Positions 10,614-15,857 of a DNA stretch of 64,000 nucleotides are shown piece by piece. A program made the position numbers and the translations under genes. Source of the stretch: Bifidobacterium vespertilionis (GTDB lineage Bacteria; Actinomycetota; Actinomycetes; Actinomycetales; Bifidobacteriaceae). Location of the stretch: positions 62,001-126,000 of the forward strand of contig NZ_RZNZ01000006.1 in NCBI RefSeq assembly GCF_008698145.1, read 5' to 3'. A model generated the notes under the pieces. The model saw only the letters and a list, made by a program, of their open reading frames with translations. It searched no databases and was not told the origin of the DNA. Within the stretch, counting starts at the first letter, position 1. Each line of letters begins with the position of its first letter.

Positions 10614-11255
10614 ATGAAGGGGCAGGGAACAACCGACGGCGCACCGCTGCGCGTGGGCATCGTGGACAACGACCCGCTTGTCCTGACGATGCTGGAGCGC
10701 AGCCTGACGTCACCGGGCGCGCCGGTCACGGTCATCTGGACGGCCACGAGCGCCGTGGAGGCCCTGCAACGCTGCATGACCGCCGACGATCGCCCCGATC
10801 TGACGCTCACCGACCTGCAGATGCCGGGAGTCGACGGATTCGAGCTCGCCCGCAGACTGCGCGCCCAATACCCCGGCATGTCCATCGTGGGCATCACCGC
10901 GTTCCTGACCAGCCTCGCAGCCAGCACGAAGGACGCCGGCACAGGTGCCGCACTGGACGCCATTGTGGACAAGGCCACGCCCGCGCGCGACCTGATCGCC
11001 GAGCTGGCCACGATCAGCGGCAACACACGCCTGCTCACATGGGTAGCGCAACAGGACGCCGCCAAGGAGCTGAGCCCCCAGGAGCTCGAAGTGATGCGCC
11101 TGTATTCCGACGGCCACACCAACGACGCGATCGCACGCCGCCTGAACGTGAGCCTGACCACCGTGAAGACATACGCGCGCAGGGCGTTCGAAAAACTCGG
11201 CGTCCACTCACGGACCGAGGCCGCGATCGCCTGCCTCAAGCGCGGACTGATCTGA
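10614..11255 (+). CDS. LuxR/NarL-family response regulator
   Basis: DNA-binding regulator of a two-component system. 213 residues from ATG 10614, chosen because AAGGAG lies ten bases upstream. Earlier in-frame starts would read through the HAIR region. The receiver domain (12-135) has the acidic pair DND at 18-20 and phospho-acceptor Asp67 in TLTDLQMPGVDG. The C-terminal LuxR helix-turn-helix (about 152-213) has LSPQELEVMRLYSDGHTNDA and NVSLTTVKTY. A plausible -10 (TACAAT, 10571-10576) lies upstream. The likely partner kinase is encoded about 3 kb away, facing it across the lipoprotein cluster. Confidence 0.93.
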   Translation: MKGQGTTDGAPLRVGIVDNDPLVLTMLERSLTSPGAPVTVIWTATSAVEALQRCMTADDRPDLTLTDLQMPGVDGFELARRLRAQYPGMSIVGITAFLTSLAASTKDAGTGAALDAIVDKATPARDLIAELATISGNTRLLTWVAQQDAAKELSPQELEVMRLYSDGHTNDAIARRLNVSLTTVKTYARRAFEKLGVHSRTEAAIACLKRGLI

Positions 11256-11268
11256 AATCCAGATCCGG

Positions 11269-11938
11269 TTACCGCAGTTTGCCCAGAGGATCACGCCCGC
11301 AGTCGTAAATCTGCTTGCCCCTGTCGCTTCCGGATCCTTCCTCATCCAGAATCGCATACGGTCCAGTGCGCTGCCGAGTGTCATGGGTTAACTCATCGAC
11401 GGTATAAGACTCATCCACAAGCCTATGATCAATCAAACACTGCACAATATAAGGAGCGGTATCTATGTTATCCGGGTTTGCCGTAGCTTGACTATATATT
11501 GGAGCCAGCATGCCATATCCCGTATCGTAATTGCATCGCTGCAGTGCATCTTCAGAATGCGTATCTCGCCCCGTTATAGGCTGACCATCCAGTCGCGCGA
11601 GTGATCCAGCACCACTTTCATTTGTTTGCACAAAGACGAAAACTCTCATCCGAAAAACATTTTCGAACTCTGTTCTGGAATTCATTCATCTCATCAACAG
11701 AGACAATATTATCAGAAATGATCTGTTTCAGATAATCACTATTGTTGATCTTAAGTAATTTCTGAATATCTGTCTGATAATTACTTATATCTGCATCATA
11801 AGAATAGGTAATATTCTCCTCATTAAAAGTAGGACCCTCATCAGTACGATCAGTAGAATTCGCACAAGAACCAAATAGAACAGCACAACAAAACAATAAA
11901 ACGATACAAGCAGAAGTATGAAATATATTCTTCATCAT
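11269..11938 (-). pseudogene. Frameshifted lipoprotein, copy A of a three-member family
   Basis: Two overlapping reading frames together match the full length of lipoproteins B and C. The first (from 11938) gives a signal peptide with lipobox FGSC and continues to NEFQNRVRKCF before ending at about 11618. The second resumes the family pattern from VQTNESGAGSLARLDG to the end RDPLGKLR at 11269. The shift lies near 11640-11655, in a T-rich stretch. The start follows GTGGAG and lies two bases after the lipoprotein B stop, so the genes are coupled. It may be a broken gene, a sequencing error, or a programmed frameshift. The base composition is A+T-rich in the 5' part. Confidence 0.75.
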
Positions 11939-11940
11939 AT

Positions 11941-12588
11941 CTACTCCACATTCCCCAATGGATCACGAACACAAACAGAAGTTTGATTCCGCTTTTGCAC
12001 ATCAGCACTTTCATCATCCAAAACTTCAAATGGTCCAGATCGCTGCTGACTATCATGAACGTAATCCGCAATACTATATGATTGATCCGCAAGACCATGG
12101 TCAATCAAACACTTCACAACATATGGTTTGAGATCAAGATTCTTAGGATTATATACTGCACTAGCATATTTCACCACCAATCTGGAATATCCAGTGTCAT
12201 CAGAGCATTTATAAGTCACGTTATCCAAATCTTCCAACGAGACTTCCACACTTTGCCCATCAAGGCGACTGACAGTGCTGTTTCCGGAATTGACATCGTA
12301 AGAGAAATTATATCCTCTCTGCGCATAACACTGCTTAACACGTCGATTGAACTCATTCATCTCGTCAGCGGTAAGCGCATCATCAGCAACTATCGCTTTA
12401 AGATACTCATTATCCACACTACCTGTAACAATGGCATCGATCTCTTGTTGATAGGCAGTAATATCAACATTCTTCAAGAACCGAGTCCCTTGATTTACTT
12501 GACTCGACTGAGGTGAATTACCACTTGAACAAGACACTAAAAGAACAAGCATAACAACCATAATCACACAACGATTTATCTTTTTCAT
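11941..12588 (-). CDS. Secreted lipoprotein, copy B (unknown function)
   Basis: 215 residues. The signal peptide ends in lipobox LVSC with Cys20, so the protein should be anchored to the outer face of the membrane. Conserved family blocks are YLKAIVADDALTADEMNEFN, QCYAQRGYNF, SRLDGQ, NPKNLDLKPYVVKCLIDHGL, DSQQRSGPFEVLDDE and a C-terminal CVRDPLG. Four cysteines remain in the mature part, as in copy C. AGGAG precedes the ATG. It is the third gene of an A+T-rich operon, after the two small secreted proteins. I do not recognise a known family. A role as partner or immunity protein for the secreted proteins is inference from context. Confidence 0.8.
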   Translation of the reverse strand: MKKINRCVIMVVMLVLLVSCSSGNSPQSSQVNQGTRFLKNVDITAYQQEIDAIVTGSVDNEYLKAIVADDALTADEMNEFNRRVKQCYAQRGYNFSYDVNSGNSTVSRLDGQSVEVSLEDLDNVTYKCSDDTGYSRLVVKYASAVYNPKNLDLKPYVVKCLIDHGLADQSYSIADYVHDSQQRSGPFEVLDDESADVQKRNQTSVCVRDPLGNVE

Positions 12589-12607
12589 CTATTACTCCTC
12601 AATAACA

Positions 12608-12637
12608 ATTGGGCATTGATTCTTATCAATGCCCAAT
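12608..12637. promoter_or_regulatory. Intergenic hairpin between secreted protein 1 and lipoprotein B
   Basis: ATTGGGCATTGA and TCAATGCCCAAT form a perfect 12-bp stem with a six-base loop. It follows the stop of the upstream gene by 13 bases and precedes the ribosome-binding site of lipoprotein B. It could attenuate transcription or protect the upstream mRNA. No U-run follows. Confidence 0.6.
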
Positions 12638-12650
12638 CATCTCAAGTATA

Positions 12651-12983
12651 TCAATGATATACTCGCATCCACCATCGCGTTATTGCAGGCACCTGCGCCG
12701 GCAACACCGCCACTCGACTTACACCTGGACCATCATTAAAAAAAGGATCATCATCACCAGGAGCCACACGTGGTCCGCGTTTTTCAGTACCATAAAGAAT
12801 AAGTACGTGTTGGATTCCGGCGTCACAACTGAAGTTAACACTGTACTCTTTATGCGTACTATACGAACAATTATAGTTATCGTAAGCCGATGCAGAATTC
12901 AAAGAGAATGGCAAGATTGCACTAACTACCGCAATTATCATTGCACATGCCATATACCTGACTGCAATAACATGCTTTTTCAT
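12651..12983 (-). CDS. Small secreted two-cysteine protein 1 (unknown family)
   Basis: 110 residues from ATG 12983, which follows AAGGA by six bases. An ATG five codons upstream lacks this. A signal peptide (MKKHVIAVRYMAC to about SASA) precedes a mature part of about 75 residues with YNCSYST, SVNFSCDAGIQHVLI, an acidic DDD segment and C-terminal WWMRVYH. The two cysteines are 14 residues apart, exactly as in protein 2, and would suit a disulfide. The gene is A+T-rich and lies 21 bases after protein 2. I do not recognise the family. A secreted signal, toxin or bacteriocin-like role is possible but unproven. Confidence 0.78.
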   Translation of the reverse strand: MKKHVIAVRYMACAMIIAVVSAILPFSLNSASAYDNYNCSYSTHKEYSVNFSCDAGIQHVLILYGTEKRGPRVAPGDDDPFFNDGPGVSRVAVLPAQVPAITRWWMRVYH

Positions 12984-13004
12984 GATTATTCCTTTCATTA
13001 TATT

Positions 13005-13337
13005 TTATGCGTAAAATACACGAGTCCAAAACTGAGAGATACCCATGGCCTCACCTGAAAGCAAAGGCACATAACTCACATCCTTGCCATAGCCGAAGTC
13101 ATCGTTGGGATCAACAACTTGTCCATAATGAATCTGAGTAAACGTAATCAGTACATGCTGAATCCCATAATCACAGCTGTAGTTAACACTGCGAATAGGA
13201 TATGTGCGATACGTACATTCATATTCATTTACGGAATCTGATGCCGCATATGCCGTTCCACCCATGCTAAGCAAACAAGCCATGGTAACAGCCATCGACA
13301 ACATGATTGCCCGTCGCTTCAATCGAGAACACTTCAT
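13005..13337 (-). CDS. Small secreted two-cysteine protein 2 (paralogue of protein 1)
   Basis: 110 residues from ATG 13337, preceded by GAGG at seven bases. Signal peptide with basic start (MKCSRLKRRA) and cleavage probably after AYA. Shared with protein 1: Y-x-C-[ST]-Y, SVNYSCDYGIQHVLI, an acidic DD segment and a C-terminal W-x-RVF. The lengths are identical and roughly 40 percent of mature residues match by eye. First gene of the A+T-rich operon. A 7-bp inverted repeat sits directly before its ribosome-binding site. Function unknown. Confidence 0.78.
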   Translation of the reverse strand: MKCSRLKRRAIMLSMAVTMACLLSMGGTAYAASDSVNEYECTYRTYPIRSVNYSCDYGIQHVLITFTQIHYGQVVDPNDDFGYGKDVSYVPLLSGEAMGISQFWTRVFYA

Positions 13338-13353
13338 TGTATTTCCTCTTTCT

Positions 13354-13370
13354 AAGTTCATTTTGAACTT
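13354..13370. promoter_or_regulatory. Inverted repeat before the secreted-protein operon
   Basis: AAGTTCA-TTT-TGAACTT is a perfect 7-bp inverted repeat, a few bases upstream of the ribosome-binding site of secreted protein 2. It could be an operator or a 5' mRNA hairpin. Confidence 0.4.
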
Positions 13371-13453
13371 ACTATCAATATATCCCTGCATCATTTTTAT
13401 TTCTCATCACTTTTGTCGTCCGAATGGTCAGTTTCAGCGATTTGCAATAATTA

Positions 13454-13479
13454 AATCACTGGACAAATATACAGTGATT
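13454..13479. terminator. Inverted repeat downstream of lipoprotein C
   Basis: AATCACTG and CAGTGATT flank a ten-base A+T-rich loop. It lies 34 bases past the lipoprotein C stop and upstream of the secreted-protein operon, so it may end one transcript or regulate the next. Confidence 0.45.
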
Positions 13480-13512
13480 CATAATTCTTTTTCAGGAGCA
13501 ATAAAAGATCCA

Positions 13513-14205
13513 TCATCCCATCCTCCCCAGCGGATCAATCCCGCACTCGTACACCTGCTTGCCCTTGCCGGACTGCGGCCCCTCCTGATCGAGGATCCTG
13601 TACGGGCCGGAGCGGGAGGCGCTGTCGCGCTGGTAGTCCGCGACCGTGTACGACGGGTCCACCAGTCCGTAGTCGATGAAGCACTGCACCACGTACGGGG
13701 AGAGATCCTTGATGTTGTCGGGGTTGCGGACGGCGTTGGTGTAGATGCGCTGGATGGTGCCGAATCCGGTCTTCTCCTCGCAGGAGATGGCGACGTCGTT
13801 GGCACCTCGTGGATCATCGGACGGGGATTTGCCGTCAAGCCGATCAACCTGCGCGCCGCCGGTCTGCAGCGCCGTGTATTTGTATCCGGCATCAGCGTAG
13901 CATTGTTGCGTCCGCCGGTACACCTCGTCCATCTCCTCGGCGGTCACCACGTCGTCGGCTATGATCGTCTTCAGGAAATCGCTCCCGGTGCGGGCCGCTT
14001 CGCGATCCAGATCGTCCCGATAGTTTCGCACATCGGCATCGCGGGAATAGCGCACCTCATCGAGCTGTGTTTGTGTGGCGACCGGCGAACCGACCCCGCC
14101 CATTCCGGCGCACGACCCCAGCATCGACAATATCGCCAACGTCATCATCGCCGCCAACGCGACCGCGCACTTCGGCGTGCGTCCTGTTCCATCCCCATTC
14201 ATCAT
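13513..14205 (-). CDS. Secreted lipoprotein, copy C (unknown function)
   Basis: 230 residues, ATG after GGAGGAAGG. Signal peptide with lipobox LGSC (Cys32). The same family blocks as copies A and B are present: FLKTIIADDVVTAEEMDEVY, QCYADAGYKY, DRLDGK, NPDNIKDLSPYVVQCFIDYG, SGPYRILDQEG and CGIDPLGRMG. Unlike copies A and B the gene has the high-G+C composition of its surroundings, so it may be the resident member while the A+T-rich block was added later. It sits just downstream of the sensor kinase gene on the same strand, separated by 123 bases. Function unknown. Confidence 0.8.
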   Translation of the reverse strand: MMNGDGTGRTPKCAVALAAMMTLAILSMLGSCAGMGGVGSPVATQTQLDEVRYSRDADVRNYRDDLDREAARTGSDFLKTIIADDVVTAEEMDEVYRRTQQCYADAGYKYTALQTGGAQVDRLDGKSPSDDPRGANDVAISCEEKTGFGTIQRIYTNAVRNPDNIKDLSPYVVQCFIDYGLVDPSYTVADYQRDSASRSGPYRILDQEGPQSGKGKQVYECGIDPLGRMG

Positions 14206-14328
14206 TGCCTTCCTCCAAACTCGCGGGTCTTCGCTGAACCTGCTTTCACGCTACCAATCCGCGGCACGCAACGGGCGTCGGCATTGTCGTCCGTTCGGCC
14301 AGTTTGGCGAGTTCGGAGCATTCGTCCA

Positions 14329-15738
14329 TCACGCCGCGGCATGCGCCGGCGCGGGCAGCGTGACGGCGATCGACCACTCCCCCTCCTCGCGGGAGACGGC
14401 TACCGTGCCGCCATAGGGCTTCAGGCTGCGCCGCATGAGCGGCAGTCCGACGCCGCCGGAGAGCGGATCGTCCGCAGGCGATGCCGAACCATCAGGCAAC
14501 TCCGGGCCAACGGACGAACCGTCAGCCAAGCCACCAGACGCGTCCGCGCCGTCAACAGCGCCCGCGCCGGTGCACATATTGGACGACCATATGCGCGCGC
14601 CGGACCCATTGGACATCATGGTCACGGCGATGGCGCATGGGCCCGGCGAGGCGTATTTGAGCATGTTGTTGCCCATTTCGTCGATGATCCGGACCATCAG
14701 ATCGAGCCGCGCCGCACCCATGACCGTCAAGTCGCCGCGCGTCAGGGTCTCGCATCGCAACCCCACGGTATTGAGCCGGTCGGCGATCTGCCGCATGCGC
14801 CGATCGACCACGATCGCGCCGATCTCGGCATTTCCGGCGAGCCCGTCCGCGTCCGCGGCAGGCTCCCCCTCCCCGGTCGGATTTCCCCCTGACCGCCCAG
14901 CTGCCTCCCCATCCGGCGCGGCGACGGTCCCCTCGTGTTCATCGACCAAGCGCCGGGTGGGATCGATCACCTCGCGGCGCAACGTCCCGAGCGTCTGCGC
15001 GAGCACGCCCTCCACCTGACGCGCCCGCTCGCGCAGCGCCGACAGGTCCATACCCCCTTGACCGTCGCCGCGATCATCCTCCAACTCGCGGCACAGCCAG
15101 ATCGCATACGTGAGCGATCCGGCCACGGATCCATGCAGCTCATGCAGCAGCCGCAATCGCTCCTCGTACTGCCGATTCTCCTGCAGCAGCAATTCATGCC
15201 GCGCCTCGGCCCGACTGTGCTCGCGCACGGATACCCGCCACATGCGCAGGCTCACGCCCAGCGCCGCCGCAAACAGCATGAACGGCAGCATCTCGAACGA
15301 ACTGTGATGCGAGACCGGCCACATCGGACGGTCACCCTGCGCCCACGCGATGCCACACACCACCGCCACGGCCGCCGCGGCGGGCACGATCAGCCCCTCC
15401 ATGGCGAACACGGCCAACGCGTAGCAGAAACCCCACAGGCTTTGGACGAACGCATCCGATGGCAGCAGCCCTTCGGCGACGGTGACGATGACGATCGCCA
15501 CGGCGGACGAGACGGGCTTGAACGGCAAAGCGACCAATGCCGCCATGTAGATCACGGACACCGCGACGTCCGGCCCATCCATCATCTCGAACCCGATGGG
15601 GTGCAGATTCCACAAGGCCATCGCGAGACATGCAATCGCCGCGACGGCGTGCATGACGTTGCGGGCGGGCGGCCGGCCGAATGGATGAAAACGGCCGGAA
15701 GGACTAGGAAGGCCGGAGGGAAGGATGGTCGATGGCAT
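14329..15738 (-). CDS. Sensor histidine kinase (NarL/DesK type)
   Basis: 469 residues. The N-terminal half has about five or six membrane helices (residues 30-165). A dimerisation helix follows with phospho-acceptor His202 in LHELHGSVAGSLTYA (HisKA_3 type), then an ATPase domain with N-box DEMGNNMLKYA and G-box GGVGLPLMRRSLKPYGGTV. Two low-complexity Gly/Ala/Asp-rich inserts (around 275-300 and 395-425) interrupt the catalytic half. It probably phosphorylates the LuxR-type regulator at 10614, which lies on the other strand across the lipoprotein cluster. The ribosome-binding site is weak, so the start is less certain. Confidence 0.85.
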   Translation of the reverse strand: MPSTILPSGLPSPSGRFHPFGRPPARNVMHAVAAIACLAMALWNLHPIGFEMMDGPDVAVSVIYMAALVALPFKPVSSAVAIVIVTVAEGLLPSDAFVQSLWGFCYALAVFAMEGLIVPAAAAVAVVCGIAWAQGDRPMWPVSHHSSFEMLPFMLFAAALGVSLRMWRVSVREHSRAEARHELLLQENRQYEERLRLLHELHGSVAGSLTYAIWLCRELEDDRGDGQGGMDLSALRERARQVEGVLAQTLGTLRREVIDPTRRLVDEHEGTVAAPDGEAAGRSGGNPTGEGEPAADADGLAGNAEIGAIVVDRRMRQIADRLNTVGLRCETLTRGDLTVMGAARLDLMVRIIDEMGNNMLKYASPGPCAIAVTMMSNGSGARIWSSNMCTGAGAVDGADASGGLADGSSVGPELPDGSASPADDPLSGGVGLPLMRRSLKPYGGTVAVSREEGEWSIAVTLPAPAHAAA

Positions 15739-15857
15739 ATCCGATGCTCGCTTTCCGAGCCGCCGTTGAGCTCGCTGCCTTCCAATCTAGCGCGGGCGCG
15801 GGCGCGGGGCGAACGGGCCTTGTCGTCCGTTCGGCCGGATTGCGGTTGCGGGTCCGC

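Follow-up and report, generated by a model that had tools for sequence, protein, structure and literature searches.

A putative two-component-controlled toxin and lipoprotein-immunity cluster in Bifidobacterium vespertilionis with a proposed pump encoded elsewhere

Described bacteriocin systems and the B. vespertilionis locus

Nisin is under two-component control. Its producer carries the lipoprotein NisI on the membrane and a separate ABC pump, NisFEG, according to the extract of PMC8538875. Lactococcin 972-type clusters (Pfam family PF09683, Lactococcin_972; streptococcin B and mediterrocin are examples) often contain a seven-transmembrane (TM) DUF1430 protein and an ATPase, and the DUF1430 protein of the mediterrocin cluster is a probable immunity protein (both from the extract of PMC12345188). 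In Actinomyces, bacteriocin genes for actifensin, present in multiple copies in some strains, lie with ABC genes and a LuxR-type regulator (extract of PMC6989792). Here, we describe a locus at positions 10614 to 15738 of a 64,000-nucleotide stretch of the Bifidobacterium vespertilionis genome (hereafter the window), in which a response regulator (RR) and a membrane sensor kinase (HK) enclose genes for two small secreted proteins (sec1, sec2) and for lipoproteins of a four-cysteine family (lipoA, lipoB, lipoC). With moderate confidence, we read it as a two-component-controlled cluster of bacteriocin-like toxins and immunity lipoproteins whose pump is supplied in trans, and we infer toxicity, immunity, sensing and regulator binding from the features given below.

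The locus shares with each described system some features and departs from it in others. Like the window, Lactococcin 972-type operons encode a small signal-peptide protein together with presumed immunity or transport genes, the sizes being 114 residues for mediterrocin as the source extract gives it, 132 for the protein of locus L055 and 110 for Sec1 and Sec2; moreover, PF09683 members occupy the same slot before the lipoprotein gene in loci L055, L146 and L151. The window proteins, however, fall outside PF09683, and the lipoprotein family goes with a membrane-fusion protein (MFP), an ATPase and an FtsX-like permease, whereas no pump was recognised in the window. As with NisI/SpaI and NisFEG, the window lipoproteins carry a lipobox and the pump would be encoded separately, which by analogy points to an immunity role. 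Unlike nisin and subtilin, Sec1 and Sec2 bear signal peptides, and nothing in the locus was recognised as a modification enzyme; additionally, the regulator is of the NarL/LuxR type and the family pump is accompanied by an MFP. The locus may work like NisI plus NisFEG without belonging to the NisI/SpaI family. Actifensin loci resemble the window in combining actinobacterial small bacteriocin genes, ABC genes and a LuxR-type regulator, but actifensin itself is a defensin-like peptide of 37 residues whose leader has a GA motif. The main text of PMC6989792 uses neither the word lipoprotein nor the term histidine kinase.

The features of the locus are as follows.

10614..11255, plus strand: NarL/LuxR-type RR (Pfam Response_reg, E 7.7e-16; GerE, E 1.4e-17)
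11269..11938, minus strand: lipoA, broken lipoprotein gene of the four-cysteine family, the parts of which match lipoC and lipoB separately
11618-11938, minus strand: lipoA N-part, lipobox present, A+T-rich
11269-11685, minus strand: lipoA C-part, G+C.51
11941..12588, minus strand: lipoB, intact lipoprotein of 215 residues, lipobox cysteine at residue 20
12604..12641, minus strand: hairpin between sec1 and lipoB, 17 uninterrupted pairs
12651..12983, minus strand: sec1, signal peptide and mature protein of about 77 residues with two cysteines, paralogue of sec2
13005..13337, minus strand: sec2, signal peptide and mature protein of about 79 residues, core C-D-x-G-[IL]-[QR]-H
13413..13434: operator-like motif copy 1, upstream of the sec2-sec1-lipoB unit, -10-like TATATT
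13513..14205, minus strand: lipoC, intact lipoprotein of 230 residues, G+C.63
14284..14305: operator-like motif copy 2, upstream of lipoC, -10-like TAGCGT
14329..15738, minus strand: membrane sensor kinase, weak HATPase_c match
15820..15841: operator-like motif copy 3, upstream of the kinase gene, -10-like TAGATT

The regulator and kinase genes are convergent, with their 3' ends facing, and all five exported genes share the strand of the kinase gene, which they follow as lipoC, sec2, sec1, lipoB and lipoA; the locus is flanked by clpB (assigned by reading) and a nucleoside hydrolase gene. The first-pass annotation, made from the sequence alone, had seen a LuxR-type regulator and a kinase flanking five small exported genes. 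Of the flanking pair, the regulator is clear by Pfam, and the kinase match, to HATPase_c only, lies below the cut-off. As for the exported genes, both secreted proteins (110 residues each), lipoB and lipoC are intact with open reading frames, whereas a change of frame disrupts lipoA. The claimed paralogy is borne out, with 36% identity between sec1 and sec2, 39% between lipoB and lipoC, and matches of the lipoA parts to both lipoB and lipoC. A lipobox cysteine is present in the lipoA N-part, lipoB and lipoC, and Sec1 and Sec2 start with a hydrophobic N-terminus and an A-x-A-type cleavage site (judged by eye and by a crude score). None of the predicted genes enclosed by the regulator and kinase genes encodes a multi-TM protein or an ABC ATPase.

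The hairpin between sec1 and lipoB, which includes three wobble pairs by reading, has a folding energy of -22.9 kcal/mol (z -6.8), and none of 200 shuffles was as stable. It is possibly an attenuator or a stabiliser of RNA ends and could set the ratio of secreted protein to lipoprotein. A 21-codon frame with a good ribosome site (MMDLLLLLKKNYESLYICPVI) at 13451-13516 of the window, minus strand, overlaps the lipoC stop, probably by chance.

The lipoprotein family and its gene neighbourhoods

In an alignment of 29 family members, of which lipoB and lipoC are two, residues C102, C142, C175, C221 and P162 are invariant in 29/29, and N161 of the N-P motif and the lipobox cysteine C32 are present in at least 90% of rows. 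Searches by profile found the family in 84 of 112 genomes of the genus (50/112 by single sequence) and in 35 of 297 genomes drawn from the order, namely 10 within the genus, 2 elsewhere in the family and 23 beyond, with at most 26 candidates scored per genus genome and at most 9 per order genome. Among named-species genomes, lipoC alone matched nothing and alignment A6 led to six loci. No lipoprotein had a Pfam or NCBIfam match above cut-off, NisI/SpaI families included; a ParM_N match on lipoB (E 2e-4) was below cut-off and ignored. No description of the family was recognised in the literature searched, which left out most subscription papers.

We compared 77 loci carrying the lipoprotein, comprising the window, seven stretches of genome G000, nine clusters found by single sequence and 60 profile clusters taken by hand, mostly from the top of the matches listed; the sample is thus non-random and includes related genomes, and RR, HK, MFP and permease labels come from profiles that were themselves made with a few of these loci. 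In 57/77 loci, an HlyD-like MFP and an FtsX-type permease are both encoded no more than 5 kb from the lipoprotein gene. At the same distance, a regulator is found in 47/77, regulator and kinase together in 42/77, and neither pump nor regulator in 7/77. The 14 lipoprotein-free controls (277,712 bases in all; one overlaps the window start and the other 13 are Lactococcin_972 regions) contain 0 MFP or permease genes, 10 regulators and 10 kinases, so the link to the pump is specific and that to the regulator less so. Outside the genus, pump genes adjoin the lipoprotein gene in 15/19 loci, by reading, from 16 of the 25 positive genomes.

The frequency of regulators and kinases in these neighbourhoods would also fit a different arrangement, in which Sec1 and Sec2 are signals sensed by complexes of lipoprotein and kinase, the lipoproteins serving as co-receptors of the kinase instead of immunity proteins; the kinase gene itself has the operator-like motif, like an autoinduction loop. 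We nevertheless regard this as unlikely. The lipoprotein and pump occur without RR or HK within 5 kb in 23/77 loci, small secreted genes precede lipoprotein genes in RR/HK-free loci too (L045, L074, L105), and separate short peptides bracketed by cysteines near the RR/HK genes of other loci look more like signals. These are signal-peptide-like open reading frames (ORFs) of 48-68 residues whose C-terminal tail is rich in Pro and Trp and bracketed by cysteines (CPPWLWWQC, for example):

L101 8507-8653, L109 10732-10890, L112 6861-7016: Cys-bracketed ORFs directly upstream of a regulator gene
L043 17578-17745, L072 16895-17101, L100 11210-11365, L097 11740-11895, L075 10786-10956: further Cys-bracketed ORFs

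The pattern, written after some members had been seen, occurs six times in the 0.21 Mb that lie no further than 700 bp from RR/HK genes and twice in 1.53 Mb elsewhere, L097 being one of these two; L075 was seen outside the pattern search. From their sequence, these ORFs are candidate peptide pheromones. No peptide sought in the window fitted.

When both strands were scanned for signal peptides out to 1.8 kb from the lipoprotein genes, 29 small ORFs scored 6 or more, the score being crude and the threshold chosen after a preview of small secreted genes. Directly upstream of the lipoprotein gene on the same strand lie 21/29, from 20/77 loci; three lie directly upstream of a regulator gene and five elsewhere, two of which, sec2 of the window and L097 11191, start tandem secreted pairs. 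In L055 (Bifidobacterium), one of these 20 loci, and in two further operons from outside the family, L146 and L151, the protein in the slot matches Lactococcin_972 above the Pfam cut-off, whereas 17 other proteins scanned with them gave no such match. The link between the lipoprotein and Lactococcin_972 rests on these three operons and on the common position. Two arrangements of other secreted proteins were also seen. In L074 (8794-10969) and L085, secreted genes of a different cargo family (GCEAQHEVWGYYKP) alternate with lipoprotein genes, the clearest one-to-one pairing seen. In L105, L106, L108, L114 and L119, a conserved secreted protein (YARAEVGR..YYNGWKHGYAYAS) precedes the lipoprotein-pump operon, with no regulator within 5 kb.

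Pumps with a two-component system serve in antimicrobial-peptide detoxification in Bce and Nis systems. The scan gave no secreted gene directly before the lipoprotein in 57/77 loci; this and the likeness to such systems also suit an envelope-stress locus that is purely defensive, in which lipoproteins and a pump in trans would guard against foreign bacteriocins and Sec1 and Sec2 would be soluble shields or cell-wall stress proteins. We hold this to be distinctly improbable, as Pfam bacteriocin genes occupy the secreted slot in three operons, and sec1 and sec2 have duplicated and diverged in parallel with the lipoproteins.

Operator-like motif, secreted proteins and origin of the A+T-rich block

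A repeat of up to 27 bp lies upstream of the kinase gene, lipoC and sec2. A 22-bp pattern written from these three sites has no other match in the 64 kb at up to two mismatches (0.02 expected), and in the whole genome it has three exact matches and one, one and six further sites at one, two and three mismatches, respectively. The best of these further sites, with a single mismatch, is 89 bp ahead of the MFP gene in a locus on another contig, C22, which encodes a homologous secreted protein. A 20-bp pattern, widened to admit the MFP sites of C22, L049 of B. avesanii and L051 of B. moraviense, has six exact matches in ten genomes, namely the three of the window and those three, and the L049 and L051 sites each precede the MFP gene. 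Allowing one mismatch adds 13 sites; one of them falls in the regulator-lipoprotein gap of the B. avesanii orthologue, and six have a different common sequence; a near-identical one-mismatch site (GTCGTCCGAATGG[TC]AAGAAC) is found at one place per genome in G003, G005, G010, G017, G054 and G076. The reversed 20-bp control had two matches, which come from a single genome.

At all three window sites, exactly 32 nt lie between the end of the motif and a -10-like hexamer (TAGATT for the kinase gene, TAGCGT for lipoC, TATATT for sec2), and the hexamers lie 45, 42 and 39 nt, respectively, before the ATG. In line with this, 32 nt separate the motif from TAGGCT in the lipoprotein promoter of B. avesanii. 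When the bases of the three stretches were shuffled 20,000 times, TANNNT never fell at a common spacing; this test was devised after the hexamers had been seen. The MFP sites of C22, L049 and L051 carry the motif in the opposite orientation, at 39, 49 and 50 nt from a downstream TAGACT. The motif common to block and kinase gene supports, at the level of sequence, a tie between the block and the two-component circuit.

The recognition-helix stretch of the window regulator (TTVKTYARRAFEKLG) is identical in the B. avesanii orthologue, and the regulators adjoining the C22 and L049 pumps differ from it there; the window regulator would thus be a candidate to bind the motif. Kinase matches at E <= 1e-15 occur in 11/112 genus genomes; apart from this genome, only B. 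avesanii has a close one (49% identity), encoded at the same site. Two paralogues in this genome are 40% and 43% identical. A paralogous locus, L042 (G000:C33:130000-148000), carries two regulator/kinase pairs, a lipoprotein gene and MFP/ATPase genes, the kinases being 40 and 43% identical to that of the window; one kinase match there has an in-frame TGA.

A search of 5.8 billion proteins returned seven for the secreted family at E <= 1. P0001 is Sec1 itself and P0003 is the C22 protein, leaving five others, all relatives of Sec2: P0002 (94%), P0004 (51%) and P0005-P0007. The C22 protein (L043 8077-8544) is the third member of the family in this genome. A profile of the window pair and P0004 scores it at E 0.023 only, with filters off; because this match is weak, its kinship rests on the C-D-x-G-H core and on the bridging proteins P0005 and P0006. 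Across the 112 genus genomes, the family profile found this genome alone plus one weak match (E 0.015, in an 806-residue frame), and a single-protein query added one further weak match (E 0.009, in a 1792-residue frame). Neither Sec1 nor Sec2 matches PF09683 at E <= 1, and scans of the exported proteins with Pfam, NCBIfam and PADLOC (the last covering four of six pieces) found no family above cut-off. By sequence, Sec1 and Sec2 form a rare family distinct from Lactococcin_972. That they are divergent Lactococcin_972 members was considered and is unsupported once signal peptides are taken out of the profile: the best of 27 small secreted proteins, picked by eye, then comes 20th among 11,563 ORFs (E 46), and the 1039 ORFs reported include 11/27, a weak excess.

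The middle four genes of the locus had been called A+T-rich, and they are, at 31-51% G+C against 65% for the window (.647). By gene, G+C is.67 for the regulator,.31 for the lipoA N-part,.40 for lipoB,.44 for both sec1 and sec2, and.68 for the kinase gene. The two lipoA parts lie in different frames, and the frame change coincides with a step in G+C near 11,620. Each part matches lipoC (blastp E 1.5e-17 and 6.6e-36) and, alone, also lipoB. At the nucleotide level, the C-part aligns with the lipoprotein gene of B. avesanii (78% over 170 nt), with lipoC (74% over 190 nt) and with lipoB (75% over 115 nt). One possible reading is that an incoming block terminated within an older lipoprotein gene. 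In B. avesanii DSM 100685, the same clpB-hydrolase interval contains a kinase, a regulator and one G+C-rich lipoprotein gene, with no predicted secreted gene and no A+T-rich block. Taken together with the near-exclusive occurrence of the secreted family in this genome among the 112, this supports the later arrival of the block that the first-pass annotation had proposed. The pattern set against that proposal, a conserved core locus at normal G+C with no co-occurrence of secreted proteins and lipoproteins, was looked for and is not what we found. One plasmid search with the block DNA and one phage search with Sec2 as protein turned up no relative. In each of 58 loci compared, G+C is lower in the lipoprotein genes than in the accompanying pump genes (mean difference -0.084), so low-G+C cargo is a family trait of which the window block is a strong example; the lipo2 gene at C22 is lower still, with G+C.37.

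Could the A+T-rich block be a decaying remnant whose function is lost? The broken lipoA and the failure to recognise a pump in the locus speak for it, but sec1, sec2, lipoB and lipoC are open, the motif and its 32-nt promoter spacing are intact, and close relatives exist (P0002 for Sec2; P0008 of the protein set, 96% identical to LipoC). We consider decay very improbable.

Proposed working of the locus and its meaning

Several observations weigh against the toxin-immunity reading. At the level of the proteins, the mature Sec1 and Sec2 have no convincing sequence relation to Lactococcin_972 or to other small secreted proteins, and an apparent trend of similarity with signal peptides included is owed largely to these peptides. 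The Lactococcin 972 family has a beta-sandwich fold; the AlphaFold2 models here are poor, with pLDDT 40, pTM 0.19 and strands at low confidence only for Sec2 (from seven sequences), and pLDDT 45 for LipoC (from a single sequence). The kinase matches HATPase_c weakly, at E 0.0096. No pump or DUF1430-like protein was recognised in the window, where no whole-window DUF1430 profile search was made. Across loci, a small secreted gene stands directly before the lipoprotein in only 20/77, and of the 14/112 genus genomes with Lactococcin_972 above cut-off, the lipoprotein is present in the fetched stretch of L055 and not in that of the other 13, so that, within the genus, Lactococcin_972 is not as a rule accompanied by it. 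As to the motif, the 22-bp pattern at up to three mismatches gives 11 sites genome-wide against 7 for the reversed control, and a 17-bp core with one or two mismatches is common away from locus genes; only the best sites therefore carry weight. The C22 site is, moreover, inverted relative to those of the window. In B. moraviense the motif stands upstream of an MFP gene, yet the one RR read there (of 12 matches) has a different helix, and the C5 regulator of this genome (39% identical) has a similar recognition helix and could, judging by that helix, share the motif site.

We still prefer the reading as a bacteriocin-like toxin and immunity cluster with its pump in trans. The suggestion of a secreted toxin or signal with surface partner or immunity proteins has been strengthened by the upstream small secreted genes and the three Lactococcin_972 operons, and the assignment of the block to the two-component circuit by the common motif. 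In this mechanism, the kinase would detect an envelope signal, whose ligand we infer, and the regulator, acting at the common motif, would activate three units: the kinase gene, lipoC, and sec2-sec1-lipoB(-lipoA). Sec1 and Sec2 would be exported by the Sec route and attack competing bacteria outside the cell, while the lipoproteins on the producer membrane would act as immunity partners and the MFP-ABC pump from contig C22, preceded by a near-identical motif, would remove secreted protein from the membrane. The pair sec1/sec2, lipoB and half of lipoA would have arrived as the A+T-rich block. Because Sec1 and Sec2 have signal peptides, no dedicated exporter is needed in the window, which suggests that the pump is protective; alternatively, it may export or process something.

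More tentatively, since we give it rather less than an even chance, the locus may belong to an undescribed, order-wide bacteriocin platform, in which a fixed chassis persists and unrelated secreted toxins are swapped into its first slot. The chassis would comprise the four-cysteine immunity lipoprotein, the MFP-ABC pump, often a NarL-type two-component system and sometimes a Cys-bracketed peptide pheromone. Lactococcin_972 would be one of several cargo families, and two loci on different contigs would form one regulon through the common operator. At lactococcin-972 loci, immunity and transport are presumed and have not been experimentally verified, as the extract of PMC11796350 states. The lipoprotein family found behind such bacteriocins and other small secreted proteins in this order offers a testable immunity candidate, and its profile could help to reveal secreted bifidobacterial antimicrobials that family searches have missed.

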